A stretch of 64,000 nt of DNA, taken from NCBI GenBank assembly GCA_025056865.1, contig JANWVO010000048.1, positions 124,001-188,000 of the forward strand, in the 5' to 3' direction. The DNA comes from Bryobacteraceae bacterium (GTDB lineage: Bacteria > Acidobacteriota > Terriglobia > Bryobacterales > Bryobacteraceae). Below are positions 11,693-51,146 of the stretch, piece by piece. A program made the position numbers and the translations under genes. The notes beneath the pieces were generated by a model. That model ran no database searches, had not been told where the DNA came from, and saw only the letters and a list, made by a program, of their open reading frames with translations. Numbering within the stretch: position 1 is the first letter of the stretch; the number at the start of each line of letters is the position of its first letter.

Positions 11693-12451
11693 TCACAGGT
11701 CTTCGGGGAAGACCGCGTAGCCCTCCGGTGGCGGGTACAGTTCCTTGAGAAGCTGGAGCCGCTTGCGCAGGTAATTCGACGGGATCTGCCGCGGGCCCGG
11801 CTCCACGTCGATGTCGCAGCAGATGCCGTGCAGATACAGCGTCAGCGTGTCGATGAAGCTCTGCCGGATGTAGCGCCGCAGCCGCTCGCTCGGCTTGGCG
11901 AAGTTGCGGTCGCGGCGGGTGAGTTCGTTCTTGAGCCGCCAGCTCGGGTCGTCGACTTCGCCGTGGACGCCCGCCTTGAGCTCGGCCTCGAGCAGGGCCT
12001 GATACTGCTTCGGGACGCCTTCCGGGAGCGAATCCGCCGCCAGTTCGGCGATGGCGCGGTAGAAGCGGTAGTGGTGGTCGGCGACTTCCGCATCCTTCAC
12101 CGCGAAGGCAAGCACGGCGCCGTCCCGGCCCACCAGCGTGCTGGAGGGCACCGATTCGGAGCTCTCCGGCGGCTCGGTGGCGATGAAGGTCTCCTCCGTG
12201 TCGCGCTTGCGATGGCCCCGCGCACGGCAGAGGTAGGGCACCAGCAGGATGCGCACCTCGGGCAGCAGGGCGGCCAAAGCAGGCGGAAGGGCGGCGATGG
12301 GCTCCTCCAGCAGCTCCCGCCGGTCTTCTTCGCTCAACGGCACCGCAGCGGCAAAGTAGCAGATGCGGTTGCCCAGAGGGACCATTTCGTTGCGGAAATG
12401 GTCTGCGAACTGAACCAGTTGGAGGCGGGAGGGAAGGCTGGGAGACGACAT
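11693..12451 (-). CDS. Hypothetical cytoplasmic protein
   Basis: Unrecognised 252-residue protein without signal peptide or membrane helix. Visible features are a central SSTLVGRDGAVLAFAVKDAE block and a charged C-terminal third (RRYIRQSFIDTLTLYLHG ... GPRQIPSNYLRKRLQLLK). Charge and helix pattern suggest a compact soluble fold. It starts at ATG 12451 (MSSPSLPSRLQ) and lies 56 bases upstream of rimO on the same strand, so it may head that operon. It is divergent from lpxB. No function is proposed. Confidence 0.7.
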   Translation of the reverse strand: MSSPSLPSRLQLVQFADHFRNEMVPLGNRICYFAAAVPLSEEDRRELLEEPIAALPPALAALLPEVRILLVPYLCRARGHRKRDTEETFIATEPPESSESVPSSTLVGRDGAVLAFAVKDAEVADHHYRFYRAIAELAADSLPEGVPKQYQALLEAELKAGVHGEVDDPSWRLKNELTRRDRNFAKPSERLRRYIRQSFIDTLTLYLHGICCDIDVEPGPRQIPSNYLRKRLQLLKELYPPPEGYAVFPEDL

Positions 12452-12535: not shown

Positions 12536-13684
12536 GTGAAGATCCTGGCCAGCGCCGGAGAACCCTCGGGCGACCGCTATGCCGCGGGCGTGGTGCGGGC
12601 ACTGGCGAGGCTCTTCCCGGAGGCGGAGTTCTTCGGCTGCCCGGGGCCGGAGATGCGCGCGGCAGGCGTCCGGGCGGTGGCCGAACAGGGCAAGCTGGCC
12701 GTGGTCGGGCTGGTGGAAGTGGTGCGCCACATTCCGGCCATCTACGGCGAATTCCGCCGGCTGGCGGCGGCGGCTGAAAGGGAACGGCCGGCGGCGGCGC
12801 TGCTGGTGGACAGCGCCGCGTTCCACCTGCGGCTGGCTGCCCGGCTGCGGCGGCTGGGCGTGCCCGTGTTTCATCTGGTGGCGCCGCAGGCGTGGGCCTG
12901 GCGCGAGGGCAGGGTCCGGCAATTGCGCCGAAACGTGGCCGAGCTGCACTGCATCTTCCCATTCGAGGAGGATTTTTTCCGCGCGCGGGGCGTCAACGCG
13001 GTCTACATCGGCAACCCGGCGGCAAGGACGGTGCGGCCGTCGCTTGGCCGCGCGGAGTTCTTCTCGAAGCACCGCATCCCGCCCGACCGTCCGCTCATCA
13101 CCCTGTGCCCGGGCAGCCGGCGGGGCGAGATTGAGCGCCACCTGCCGGTCCTGCGCGGGGCGGTGGAGCGCGTGCTCGCGCAGCGGGCCTGCACGTTCCT
13201 GCTGGCCGCGCCCGCGGGCAGCCGCGAGCGGTTCGGTCCGTCATTCTTTGACACCCTGTGCGGCAGCGGAAGAGTCCGGTATTGTGAGGGAGAAACTTGG
13301 GACGCAATGGCGCACGCCGACCTGACTCTGGCTGCCAGCGGCACCGTGACCACCGAAGCGGCGCTGCTCGGCTCGCCCATGGTGATTTTTTACCGTGTGC
13401 ATCCGCTGACGTATCTGCTTGGCCGGCCGCTGGTGCGCACGCCGTATTTCTCGATCGTGAATCTGGTGGCGGGCGGGTGCGTGGCGCCGGAGCTGATCCA
13501 GAACGACATGACGCCGGAGAAGCTGGCCGGGGAAGCGCTGCGGCTGCTGGCCGATGAAGAAGCCCGCGCGCGGATGCGCGCCGCACTCGCCCGCGTGCGC
13601 GAGGCGCTCGCCACCGGCGCGGATCCCTACGAGAAATCCGCCGCGCGCATCGCCGCTTACCTGAGAAACGAGGTTCGCTCATGA
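12536..13684 (+). CDS. lpxB: Lipid-A-disaccharide synthase
   Basis: Glycosyltransferase joining UDP-2,3-diacylglucosamine and lipid X to the lipid A disaccharide; peripheral inner-membrane enzyme. It has 382 residues. Family motifs: ILASAGEPSGDRYAAG at the N-terminus, FHLVAPQAWAWREGR, IFPFEEDFF, YIGNPAARTV, LCPGSRRGEI, and LAASGTVTTEAALLGSPMV with FYRVHPLTYLLGRPLV. The start is GTG 12536. Its presence shows that the organism makes lipopolysaccharide. The stop overlaps the next gene's ATG (ATGA, 13681-13684). The other lipid A genes are not in this window. Confidence 0.95.
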   Translation: MKILASAGEPSGDRYAAGVVRALARLFPEAEFFGCPGPEMRAAGVRAVAEQGKLAVVGLVEVVRHIPAIYGEFRRLAAAAERERPAAALLVDSAAFHLRLAARLRRLGVPVFHLVAPQAWAWREGRVRQLRRNVAELHCIFPFEEDFFRARGVNAVYIGNPAARTVRPSLGRAEFFSKHRIPPDRPLITLCPGSRRGEIERHLPVLRGAVERVLAQRACTFLLAAPAGSRERFGPSFFDTLCGSGRVRYCEGETWDAMAHADLTLAASGTVTTEAALLGSPMVIFYRVHPLTYLLGRPLVRTPYFSIVNLVAGGCVAPELIQNDMTPEKLAGEALRLLADEEARARMRAALARVREALATGADPYEKSAARIAAYLRNEVRS

Positions 13685-15636
13685 GACGCGAGGTTCTGGC
13701 CCTTCCGATCTTCGCCGCCGCCTTCTGGCTGGCCGCGCCCGCCGCCGCGCAGCAGCGCCGCGGCGCCGTGGACGTCGAAAGCTACCGTATCGAGCTGCTC
13801 GTGGAGCCCTCGCAGCAGACCCTCAGCGAGCGCACGCAGGTGACGTTCACGCCGACGGAAGACCGGGTGCAGACGGTGGCCTTTGAGCTGCATAACTCGC
13901 TCAATGTCCTGTCTGTCACCGGCGACGGAGGGCAGCCGTTGCAGACCAACCGCCGTTTCAACGAGCACGTGGTGGAGCTGTTCTTCCCGCAGCCGCTCGA
14001 GCGCGGCAAGCCGGCGACGGTCACCTTCCAGATCAGCGGCGCGCTGCGCGGCGACGAGGAGTCTCCCGTCTACGGCATCACGTTTGCGGCCATCCGCAAC
14101 GACCATGCGTTCCTGCTCTACCCGGCGCGTTGGTTTCCGGTGAGCGGGTACACCACAGACCGTTACCAGATGGAGCTCACCGTGCGCGCGCCGGCTGCCT
14201 TCCGCGCGGTGTCGAGCGGAGTCGCCGTGCCGGCGGCTGACGGGCAGGGCGTGACGTTCCGCTCCACGTCGCCGGGCTTTTACGGCAGCCTTGCTCTCGT
14301 GCAGGGCGCCCCGCGGCGCGTGCAGGCCGAGGGCGCCGTGACCGAAGTGTGGTTCCGCGGGGAGCGGCAGGCTCAGGCGCAGGCATGGGGCGAGGAGACA
14401 GGCCGCGTGATCTCCTGGCTGACGGGCGTCTTCGGCGTGCCGCCCTACCGCAACCTGGCGCTGGTGGAGACGGGCGAGGGCGCTCCCAACGGCTATTCGG
14501 CTCCGGGCGTGATCTTCGTCTCGCCGGCGGCGGCGGGAGCGAAGCCCAATCCGCGGCTGCTGGCCAACCAGATTGCGCGGCAGTGGTACGGCGTGCTGTT
14601 CTCGCCCGCGCACCGCAACCACATCTGGATCACCAATGGCATGGCGCGCTATGCCGAGATCCTTTATCTCGAGCACCTCAACGGAGCGCAGGCGGTGGAG
14701 CCGGACATCCGCGACCTTTACGTCGACGCGCTGACGGTGACGGATGCGCCGGTGCGGCAGGCGGCGCGCTTCGAAGACTACAGCCCGGAGTTCTTCGCCG
14801 TCACCGGCAGCAAGGGCGCGGCCGTCTATCACATGCTGCGGTGGGTCATCGGCGACGAGGCCTTCGGCAAGCTGCTGAAAGCCGCCACCGACCAGTTCGC
14901 CAACCGCTCCATCACCACCGACGACCTGCGCAGGCTGGCCGAAAGCGTGAGCGGGGAAAATCTCCAGGGCTTCTTCATCCAGTGGCTAGAGTCGACCGAT
15001 GCGCCCGAGTTCCGCCTGAAGTACACCATTTACCGGACGCAGAAGGGCTTCCGCGTGATGGGTACCATCCAGCAGGACCTCGACACCTTCCGCATGCCGG
15101 TCGAGCTGAAGATTGAAACCGAAGGCAACCCGGAGTTCCAGCGGGTGATCGTCGTCGGGCCATCGACGGATTTTTCAGTGGACACGTTCGGCAAGCCGCG
15201 CAAGGTGATCGTGGACCCCAACGGGCGCGTGCTGCGGTTCAGCCGCGAGATGCGCGTGGCGGTGGCGATTCGCCGCGGCGAGCAGTTCGCCGAGATCGGC
15301 CAGTACAACGACGCGCTGAAGGAATACCAGCGGGCTCTGGAGGTGAACCCGATCAGCTCGCTGGCGCATTACCGCGTGGGCGAGGTCTTTTTCCTGATGG
15401 GCAACTACCAGAGCGCGGCCAACAGCTTCCGCGAGGCGCTGAACGGCGATCAGGAGCCGCAGTGGACGGTGGTGTGGAGCCACATCAACCTGGGCAAGAT
15501 CTTCGACATCACCCAGCAGCGGGAGCGCGCGCGCAACGAGTATCAGCAGGCGCTGCGCACCAAGGACAACACGCAGGGCGCGCTGGAGGAAGCGGCGAAA
15601 TACCTTCAGGAGCCTTACCAGCGGAAGGAGAATTAG
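13681..15636 (+). CDS. Secreted M1-peptidase-like protein with lost zinc site, fused to TPR repeats
   Basis: A 651-residue exported protein with signal peptide at residues 1-23 (AAPAAAQ cut). Residues ~30-230 match the M1 N-terminal beta domain, and ~230-450 match the gluzincin domain. The zinc motif HExxH is replaced by NQIAR (residues 296-300, in LLANQIARQWYG). The downstream NEG is TNG (318-320), and no GxMEN exopeptidase loop is present, so all three zinc ligands and the catalytic Glu are missing. A beta domain follows, then about three TPR-like repeats at ~520-640 (GQYNDALKEYQRALEVNP). It is probably a binding or scaffold protein in the periplasm and is translationally coupled to lpxB. 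Confidence 0.85.
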   Translation: MRREVLALPIFAAAFWLAAPAAAQQRRGAVDVESYRIELLVEPSQQTLSERTQVTFTPTEDRVQTVAFELHNSLNVLSVTGDGGQPLQTNRRFNEHVVELFFPQPLERGKPATVTFQISGALRGDEESPVYGITFAAIRNDHAFLLYPARWFPVSGYTTDRYQMELTVRAPAAFRAVSSGVAVPAADGQGVTFRSTSPGFYGSLALVQGAPRRVQAEGAVTEVWFRGERQAQAQAWGEETGRVISWLTGVFGVPPYRNLALVETGEGAPNGYSAPGVIFVSPAAAGAKPNPRLLANQIARQWYGVLFSPAHRNHIWITNGMARYAEILYLEHLNGAQAVEPDIRDLYVDALTVTDAPVRQAARFEDYSPEFFAVTGSKGAAVYHMLRWVIGDEAFGKLLKAATDQFANRSITTDDLRRLAESVSGENLQGFFIQWLESTDAPEFRLKYTIYRTQKGFRVMGTIQQDLDTFRMPVELKIETEGNPEFQRVIVVGPSTDFSVDTFGKPRKVIVDPNGRVLRFSREMRVAVAIRRGEQFAEIGQYNDALKEYQRALEVNPISSLAHYRVGEVFFLMGNYQSAANSFREALNGDQEPQWTVVWSHINLGKIFDITQQRERARNEYQQALRTKDNTQGALEEAAKYLQEPYQRKEN

Positions 15637-49478: not shown

Positions 49479-51146
49479 ATGGCGTTTGTGGCCGTGACCG
49501 ACGTCCATTCGTTTGCCAACTTCCACGAATCGCGCGTGCGGCACCTGGAGCTGGATCTCGCCGTGTCGTTTGCCGAAAGGAAGCTGCGCGGCGCGGCGAC
49601 GCTCGCGCTGGAGCCGGCCGGACGGCGCCTGGTGCTTGACACGCGCGGGCTGAAGATCCATCGCGTGAACGGCCGCGAGGACAATTTCCGGCTGGGGCCG
49701 GAAGATCCGATCCTGGGCTCGCCGCTGGAGATCGCTCTGGAGCCGGGCGTGCGCAGCGTGCGCATCGAATACGAAACGTCGCCGGAGGCGAGCGGGCTGC
49801 AATGGCTGGAGCCGGCGCAGACGGCGGGCAATCGTCACCCGTTCCTTTATTCGCAGTCGCAGGCGATCCACGCCCGGAGCTGGATTCCATTGCAGGACTC
49901 GCCGGCCGTACGCATCACCTTTTCGGCGCGGATCCACGCGCCGGTGCCGTTGCGCGCGCTGGTGGCGGCGCACCGCGTGCGGGACGGGCATTTCCACATG
50001 CCGTTCCCGGTGCCGCCCTATCTGTTGGCGCTGGCAGTGGGCGATGTCGAATTCCGCGCGCTGGGGCCGCGCACAGGGGTGTGGGCCGAGCCGGCGGTGC
50101 TCGAGCGGGCGGCCTGGGAGTTCGCCGACGTCGAGCGCATGGTGGAAGCGGCCGAGGCGCTTTATGGGCCTTACCGCTGGGGCCGCTACGACCTGCTGGT
50201 GCTGCCGCCGTCGTTCCCGTTCGGCGGCATGGAGAATCCGTGCCTGACGTTCGCCACGCCCACAGTGATCGCCGGCGACCGCAGCCTCGTTTCGCTGGTG
50301 GCGCACGAGCTGGCGCACTCCTGGTCCGGCAATCTCGTCACCAACGCCACGTGGAACGACTTCTGGCTGAACGAGGGATTCACGACCTACATCGAGCGGC
50401 GCATTCAGGAGGCGCTGTACGGGCGCGCGCGCAGCGAGATGGAGATGGCGGTGGAGCTGGGCGAGCTGGAAGAAGAGCTGAAGCATCTGCGGCCTGAGGA
50501 CCAACGGCTCGTGCTGGATCTGAAGGGGCGCGATCCGGACGAGGGCATGACGCAGGTGGCGTATGTGAAGGGCGCGCTGCTGCTGCGCCATCTCGAGGAG
50601 AAGCTGGGGCGCGCGCGCTGGGATGCGTGGCTGCGGGGCTACTTTGGGAAGTTTGCCTTCCAGTCGATCACCACGGACGATTTCGCCGCCGAGCTGCGGC
50701 GCGCGTTTCCCGACGCCGATGTGAGCGCCTGGCTCCACGAGCCGGGGCTGCCCGCCGATGCGCCGCGGCCCCGGTACGAGTTTGAAAAGACGCCGCGCGA
50801 CGGCTGGGTGACGCAGGAATGGCTCCACTGGCTGCGCTCGCAGCCCGCCCGGATGAGCCGCGAGGAGATGGCGGCGATCGACCGTGCGTGGAAGCTGACC
50901 GCCACCGGCAACAGCGAGATTGCAGCGCAGTGGCTGCTGATGGCGGTGCGGAACGGCTACGAGCCGGCCTACGGGCGGCTGGAGCGGTTCCTGATCGAGG
51001 TGGGGCGGCGCAAGTATGTGAAGCCGCTTTACGCGGAGCTGGTGAAAACGCCGGAAGGACGGGAGCGGGCGCGGCGGATCTACGAAAAAGCGCGTCCCGG
51101 CTATCACCCGATCACGCGGGCCGCCGTGGACGCGCTTCTCAAGTAG
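49479..51146 (+). CDS. M1 family metallopeptidase (LTA4-hydrolase-like aminopeptidase)
   Basis: A 555-residue zinc aminopeptidase with intact active site: GGMEN at 249-253, HELAH at 276-280 and NEG with the third zinc ligand Glu299 (WLNEGFTTYIERR). The overall order (N-terminal beta domain, catalytic domain, C-terminal helical domain with RPRYEFEKTPRDGW) matches leukotriene-A4-hydrolase-like aminopeptidases. No convincing signal peptide is present from ATG 49479 (MAFVAVTDVHSFANFHES). It contrasts with the dead M1 homologue at 13.7 kb. It is convergent with the M28 peptidase 7 bases away. Confidence 0.92.
   Translation: MAFVAVTDVHSFANFHESRVRHLELDLAVSFAERKLRGAATLALEPAGRRLVLDTRGLKIHRVNGREDNFRLGPEDPILGSPLEIALEPGVRSVRIEYETSPEASGLQWLEPAQTAGNRHPFLYSQSQAIHARSWIPLQDSPAVRITFSARIHAPVPLRALVAAHRVRDGHFHMPFPVPPYLLALAVGDVEFRALGPRTGVWAEPAVLERAAWEFADVERMVEAAEALYGPYRWGRYDLLVLPPSFPFGGMENPCLTFATPTVIAGDRSLVSLVAHELAHSWSGNLVTNATWNDFWLNEGFTTYIERRIQEALYGRARSEMEMAVELGELEEELKHLRPEDQRLVLDLKGRDPDEGMTQVAYVKGALLLRHLEEKLGRARWDAWLRGYFGKFAFQSITTDDFAAELRRAFPDADVSAWLHEPGLPADAPRPRYEFEKTPRDGWVTQEWLHWLRSQPARMSREEMAAIDRAWKLTATGNSEIAAQWLLMAVRNGYEPAYGRLERFLIEVGRRKYVKPLYAELVKTPEGRERARRIYEKARPGYHPITRAAVDALLK

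Follow-up and report, generated by a model that had tools for sequence, protein, structure and literature searches.

Four-domain M1 metallopeptidases carry an ARM/HEAT-like domain, and M1 proteins with non-enzymatic roles are already known from eukaryotes. TAF2, which uses an M1-like domain inside the nuclear TFIID complex, has an inactive aminopeptidase domain. Among proteins with tetratricopeptide repeats (TPRs), LapB (also called YciM), which lacks an M1 domain, acts from the cytoplasmic side to control the synthesis of lipopolysaccharide (LPS) through LpxC. An aminopeptidase domain has been described in TAF150 proteins (PMC1199594), and Tma108, an M1 homologue from yeast with affinity for nascent chains, is thought to be non-enzymatic and protein-binding (PMC11266112). 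Here we describe a gene of Acidobacteriota that encodes an M1 fold without its zinc site, joined to a TPR domain, and that is located directly behind lpxB, the gene for lipid-A-disaccharide synthase. The gene lies in a stretch of 64,000 nucleotides, referred to below as the window (positions 124,001 to 188,000 of contig JANWVO010000048.1, or C3), from the genome of a Bryobacteraceae bacterium (GCA_025056865.1, or G000; 4.18 Mb in 61 contigs). We consider it fairly probable that the product, which we call the pseudo-peptidase, is a non-catalytic and probably exported periplasmic TPR adaptor that is expressed together with lipid A synthesis.

The pseudo-peptidase has the same fold as the M1 metallopeptidases IRAP, ERAP1, LTA4 hydrolase, tricorn factor F3 and the enzyme 6a8z from Deinococcus radiodurans. 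Residues 294-435 match the Pfam family Peptidase_M1 (PF01433; E=2.3e-15, 57.3 bits, cut-off 27.7), and TPR families match approximately residues 530-640, with TPR_2 reaching 48.7 bits (cut-off 27) in three stretches. An AlphaFold2 model, calculated from an input alignment of 65 sequences, has a mean predicted local distance difference test score (pLDDT) of 94.1 and a predicted template modelling score of 0.89; confidence is low in the signal region and for the final residues. The best match to the PDB found by Foldseek is IRAP (7zyf, E 3.5e-30). With VIA-align, the Z scores range from 36.6 to 38.9 across the 50 PDB entries listed, which are M1 enzymes, for example tricorn factor F3 (1z1w; Z 38.9, root-mean-square deviation (rmsd) 6.1 over 527), LTA4 hydrolase (4gaa; Z 38.5, rmsd 3.2 over 415) and the two-domain M1 protein from Deinococcus (6a8z_B; Z 38.0, rmsd 3.7 over 399). 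A family profile searched against PDB sequences also matched 6a8z (E 5.4e-35). The structural matches therefore define an M1 fold, in which an N-terminal beta domain, a catalytic domain and a beta-sandwich domain are followed by seven TPR helices. These helices (residues 522-643) form three TPRs and a cap, and are found where four-domain M1 enzymes have their ARM/HEAT-like domain. A preliminary description of the locus had proposed a full-length gene with an M1-peptidase fold and a C-terminal TPR array, to be checked by structure prediction; the observation is confirmed, and the array can be specified as these three TPRs and their cap.

The residues that define the active site of the M1 enzymes are missing from this fold. 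In the window protein the sequence NQIAR (N296 to R300) takes the place of HExxH, and the columns of the third zinc ligand, the Glu of GxMEN and the catalytic Tyr, the roles of which we take to be those assigned in the M1 literature, contain N319 (in TNG), S273 (in NGYSA) and G376, respectively. The altered HExxH and third-ligand motifs and the missing GxMEN had already been pointed out in the preliminary description. Relatives were gathered by six-frame protein searches of phylum genomes, family genomes and, in one scan, named genomes; at an E-value of 1e-30 they are present in 108 of the 297 phylum genomes. The alignment comprises 139 distinct proteins and leaves out identical rows, two paralogues and the window's own second copy. 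In a first tree (short search, LG+G4), 127 of the 139 rows form one Acidobacteriota clade, with a support of 95 that is disturbed by long branches. The clade divides into lineage a, with 18 rows, lineage b, with 29, and lineage c, with 80; lineage c is the window's class and contains 52 rows from the window's own family and 28 from a second family. HExxH, the first zinc His and the Glu of GxMEN are each absent from all rows of the clade, and the catalytic Tyr is kept in five. The 11 rows that we scored as active all lie outside the clade and retain both His residues, the general-base Glu and the third Glu without exception, the Tyr in 10 cases and the GxMEN Glu in eight; the site of L126, which also falls outside the clade, is likewise dead. 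An intact HExxH beside lpxB, which would have spoken against the preliminary description, was not found among the 139 aligned rows. The window also encodes an intact M1 protein of the LTA4H type (49479-51146, plus strand; HELAH, GGMEN and WLNEG, with the PF09127 C-terminal domain), an internal contrast to the dead one.

The pseudo-peptidase gene is under purifying selection. Ratios of non-synonymous to synonymous substitution rates (dN/dS), calculated by the Nei-Gojobori method with our own script, are 0.099, 0.129, 0.142 and 0.153 for the whole gene against four genus neighbours. Because HExxH is absent from all 127 clade rows and these ratios are low, the loss of the motif is not due to chance or sequencing error. 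In the same four comparisons the ratio is lowest in the TPR domain (0.036-0.063), higher in the M1 core (0.095-0.204) and highest in the signal region (0.66-0.93). Columns with one residue in at least 90% of the rows of lineages b and c are likewise most frequent in the TPR domain (35 of 125) and the beta-sandwich domain (17 of 80); the M1 core has 19 such columns among 240, and the N-terminal domain 10 among 176. Conserved columns of the TPR domain include W595, D609 and R614. The conserved surface is therefore the C-terminal part of the protein, and not the old pocket. A decaying gene or an assembly artefact would account for the missing motif and nothing further; it is refuted by conservation, as nearly all matches listed are long frames without inner stops, from many separate assemblies, the dN/dS ratios within the genus are 0.10-0.15, and TPR columns are fixed across lineages. 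We give this explanation practically no credence.

The residues now found at the old site could also belong to an enzyme that is changed rather than dead, its pocket having acquired a different chemistry or the ability to bind some other metal or ligand. The commonest set of residues at this site varies from lineage to lineage (R, E, Y, Q in a; R, R, mixed, D or E in b; N, Q or T, R or H, N in c), N296 is present in 79 of the 80 lineage c rows, and K378 in 126 of the 127 clade rows, all of which would fit a pocket that is still in use. However, the lineages do not share one set, and fixed columns are scarcer in the M1 core than in the TPR and beta-sandwich domains. No new acidic or His cluster is shared at the listed columns, in a comparison of columns as distinct from a search of the three-dimensional pocket. 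We consider a changed enzyme improbable.

The N-terminus of the protein is hydrophobic, and 124 of the 127 clade rows pass a simple hydrophobicity test, with a lipobox-like match in 7 of 127. On the basis of sequence, the pseudo-peptidase is probably exported via a likely signal peptide.

The upstream gene is identified as lpxB by PF02684 (E=3.3e-79) and TIGR00215 (231.9 bits, above the cut-off of 190.25), and its stop codon overlaps the start codon of the pseudo-peptidase gene in an ATGA sequence, as the preliminary description had noted. The pairing that it proposed to follow in relatives is widely conserved, alongside the loss of ligands in 127 of 127 clade rows: among the 109 rows of lineages b and c, 104 (27/29 and 77/80) have lpxB as the gene immediately upstream, in the same orientation and at gaps of -41 to 206 bp, with the start codons of the relatives chosen by script. 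In the window's own family the median gap is -4, the genes overlap in 30 of 52 rows, and the gap is at most 25 bp in 50 of 52. The median in lineage b is 9 (27 rows). In the second family the gaps are 43-206 bp (25 rows), and therefore overlap alone does not hold the pair together. Only two of the five rows of b and c without an adjoining lpxB are clearly unlinked; in L095 and L037 the contig end is reached, and the flank of L041 is too short, with lpxB located about 1.5 kb further up in a longer copy of that locus (L175). In a crude neighbour clustering, from which some genes were lost, lpxB forms by far the commonest neighbour cluster, the next one being present in 22 loci. The pseudo-peptidase gene itself occurs in 146 of 150 family genomes. 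Among the four genomes without it, G348 and G417 have no lpxB match, and G343 and G396 contain a piece of lpxB that stops at a contig end.

Lipid A genes are often clustered in other phyla, according to PMC3087551. In the window's genome, G000, the genes for LpxC, LpxK and an LptD are each located on a contig different from that of lpxB, in searches that did not extend to lpxA and lpxD. The match for LpxK (L199, G000 C31:2707-3636) lies in a frame of 795 residues, compared with 328 positions in the model, and is possibly part of a fusion. The fullest loci of lineage b (L081, L082, L086, L091, L093 and L099) share the order sigma-54 response regulator, sigma-70-like factor, unnamed protein, MnmA and lpxB, with names taken from Pfam matches in the representative L093; the LpxD-like protein mentioned below was named in L086 alone. 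On the idea that lpxB might mark an lpx operon, the evidence points both ways: the genes upstream in these loci are not lpx genes (one representative each), but downstream there is a PEMT-type gene in some lineage b loci and an LpxD-like gene, three genes away, in L078, L082 and L086. The unnamed protein between the sigma-70-like factor and MnmA has about 300 residues and no Pfam match above the cut-off (L093 2612-3532, L086 2771-3649).

These surroundings bear on a different explanation of the pairing, in which the protein is an envelope or secreted-protein factor unrelated to LPS that came to lie behind lpxB for a suitable growth-linked promoter, and is kept there by that promoter and by the translational overlap. 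It would explain why lineage a retains the protein with no lpxB nearby, and why the genes upstream of lpxB in lineage b encode MnmA, the unnamed protein, the sigma-70-like factor and the sigma-54 activator and not Lpx proteins. It is also consistent with the location of LpxB and a presumably exported protein on opposite sides of the inner membrane. Less easily explained is that the pair with lpxB is maintained in lineage b and in each of the two families of lineage c, while most other neighbours change. The second family keeps the gene order in spite of its wider gaps, and in some lineage b loci an LpxD-like gene follows downstream. We regard this explanation as rather unlikely in the form given. 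Compared with a role in LPS or outer-membrane assembly, a more general envelope function independent of LPS fits the observations nearly equally.

Several observations weigh against a non-catalytic adaptor tied to lipid A synthesis. The putative link between the pseudo-peptidase and LPS is the lpxB pairing, which is nearly universal in lineages b and c and absent from lineage a: these 18 of the 127 clade rows are equally dead and TPR-bearing, and have lpxB in 0 of 18 fetched flanks. Because lineage a keeps the protein under these circumstances, its function does not need the pairing. Conversely, lpxB does not need the pseudo-peptidase, since lpxB is present in 272 of the 297 phylum genomes and the full-length family, at an E-value of 1e-120, in 97. 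In G273, a genome of the second family that is 100% complete, lpxB is present and a full-length family member is not. The two genes are also separated in L029 (G249; pseudo-peptidase gene at C5:1459281, lpxB at C5:2407429) and lie on different contigs in L110 (G016). As for the zinc site, remnants of the ligands persist in the clade, with the second His in 26 of the 80 rows of lineage c (none in a or b), the third Glu in 10 of 127 and the general-base Glu in 18 of 127, and the lack of peptidase activity is a judgement from residues. Finally, the whole-gene dN/dS rises to 0.297 and 0.287 against two more distant genomes.

The full-length family is set off by a gap in E-values between 1.8e-128 and 1.2e-90. 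Of the 97 genomes that contain it, 95 have an lpxB match; the exceptions are G157 and G211, the gene in G211 being located at a contig start. In G273 (C93; L189 and L192), lpxB was matched as two pieces inside a single frame of 463 residues, and G130, G241 and G281 likewise show two lpxB pieces.

Taking both sides together, we continue to favour the adaptor. In this model the M1 fold would serve as a scaffold from which the zinc site, the catalytic Tyr and the GxMEN anchor have gone, and the TPR and beta-sandwich domains would form the working surface that binds a conserved candidate partner in the periplasm. Putative co-transcription with lpxB and, in the Bryobacteraceae, the translational overlap may tie the amount of adaptor to the synthesis of the lipid A disaccharide. 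LpxB is cytoplasmic and acts on the cytoplasmic side. Since the pseudo-peptidase looks exported, the coupling is more likely one of expression than of contact, and direct contact between LpxB and the pseudo-peptidase is unlikely. The preliminary description had suggested a periplasmic pseudo-peptidase, made together with a lipid A enzyme, as a scaffold for envelope assembly. The dead M1-TPR protein, its probable export and the unit with lpxB stand; the scaffold role goes further than these findings. Two counts speak against a strict role with lpxB: 18 of the 127 rows, those of lineage a, lack lpxB in the fetched flanks, and only 95 of the 272 lpxB genomes contain the full-length family. A role in LPS or outer-membrane assembly is the weakest step that we infer, and we put it forward only tentatively. 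We speculate further that the protein could be a periplasmic LPS or outer-membrane biogenesis factor of the Acidobacteriota's own, a retired M1 enzyme with a TPR domain that docks on the envelope assembly machinery and with an abundance governed by its translational coupling to the production of lipid A disaccharide; this more specific proposal is somewhat unlikely to hold in full.

Table 1. Features of the lpxB and pseudo-peptidase locus, in window coordinates; the domain borders of the pseudo-peptidase were set by hand.
Feature	Position	Strand	Evidence
lpxB, lipid-A-disaccharide synthase	12536..13684	+	PF02684, TIGR00215
ATGA overlap of lpxB stop (TGA, 13682..13684) and pseudo-peptidase start (ATG, 13681..13683)	13681..13684	+	sequence; overlap in 30/52 own-family rows, median gap -4
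Pseudo-M1-peptidase with TPR domain, 651 residues	13681..15636	+	open reading frame, Pfam, structure model
Likely signal peptide, approximately residues 1-23	13681..13749	+	hydrophobic N-terminus by eye; simple hydrophobicity test on relatives
N-terminal beta domain of M1 fold, residues 24-200	13750..14280	+	model and structural matches to M1 enzymes
M1 catalytic-fold domain, residues 201-440, zinc site lost (N296, Q297, R300, N319; Tyr column G376)	14281..15000	+	Pfam, alignment
Beta-sandwich domain, residues 441-520, strongly conserved	15001..15240	+	alignment, model
TPR domain, residues 521-645, best-conserved part of the protein	15241..15615	+	Pfam, dN/dS, alignment, model

On the minus strand at 11693-12451, the window encodes a protein of 252 residues without a Pfam match, the cluster of which is found in 22 loci, mostly immediately upstream of lpxB and on the opposite strand. 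Scans for promoters and terminators at the pseudo-peptidase locus gave nothing useful. Repeats within the gene are short two-copy pairs only, and look like chance.

Some distant relatives bear on the origin of the family. L193 (G060 C3:66588-80327, minus strand) has HEIAH, WLREG and a Tyr at the catalytic place, and its C-terminal stretch resembles that of the dead family, with putative repeats and a match to the family profile that extends to position 628; no lpxB is present in the 13.7 kb examined. It is a possible active relative of the dead family, to judge from its motifs. L125 (G280) has HEIGH, no Tyr and TPR matches below the Pfam cut-offs, with no lpxB on its short contig, and L126 (G101) has TPRs and no zinc motif, with no lpxB in the flanks examined. 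Together, these proteins hint that the M1-TPR architecture may be older than the loss of the zinc site. A tree of 63 hand-chosen rows supports lineages a, b and c (Shimodaira-Hasegawa-like approximate likelihood ratio test values of 100, 99 and 100), and gives neither a settled order of the three lineages nor a settled placement of the very distant L193. Accordingly, we claim neither a single loss of the zinc site nor several.

The family has so far been seen only in Acidobacteriota, with other phyla hardly searched. The scan of named genomes returned six loci of acidobacterial type and one TPR-only match, and was not a proper search outside the phylum. One of the six loci, L043 (DYJN01000007.1), is titled 'Arcobacter sp.', an organism name that looks wrong. 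Plasmid records gave distant matches only, in 27 records, none of which has one place covering 80% of the query.

Searches of Pfam, NCBIfam and PDB sequences returned generic M1 and TPR matches only, among the matches listed, and no specific model. The LapB model of NCBIfam reaches the TPRs of the pseudo-peptidase and no other part (E=0.075, 12.1 bits, where the cut-off is 474), which places the protein outside that family; the likeness to LapB is that both are TPR proteins with a connection to lipid A synthesis, here through the pairing with lpxB. With TAF2 the pseudo-peptidase shares an M1-like domain, but TAF2 is eukaryotic and has no relation to the envelope. Tma108 differs in being eukaryotic and ribosome-associated, and the accessible part of the review mentions neither TPRs nor a link to lpxB for it, nor a bacterial M1 example among the pseudo-peptidases (PMC11266112). 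A literature search, which most subscription journals lay outside, gave no account of a protein of this kind from Acidobacteriota.

Acidobacteriota are a major soil phylum, and we found little in the literature on the construction of their outer membrane. A conserved protein without a specific family model, locked to a lipid A synthesis gene in two lineages, offers a concrete entry point to this question. It also provides a clear bacterial example of an M1 pseudo-peptidase that is maintained by purifying selection. If the proposed role is true, it would be, as far as the literature was searched, the first case of a bacterial M1 pseudo-peptidase for which a cellular role is known.

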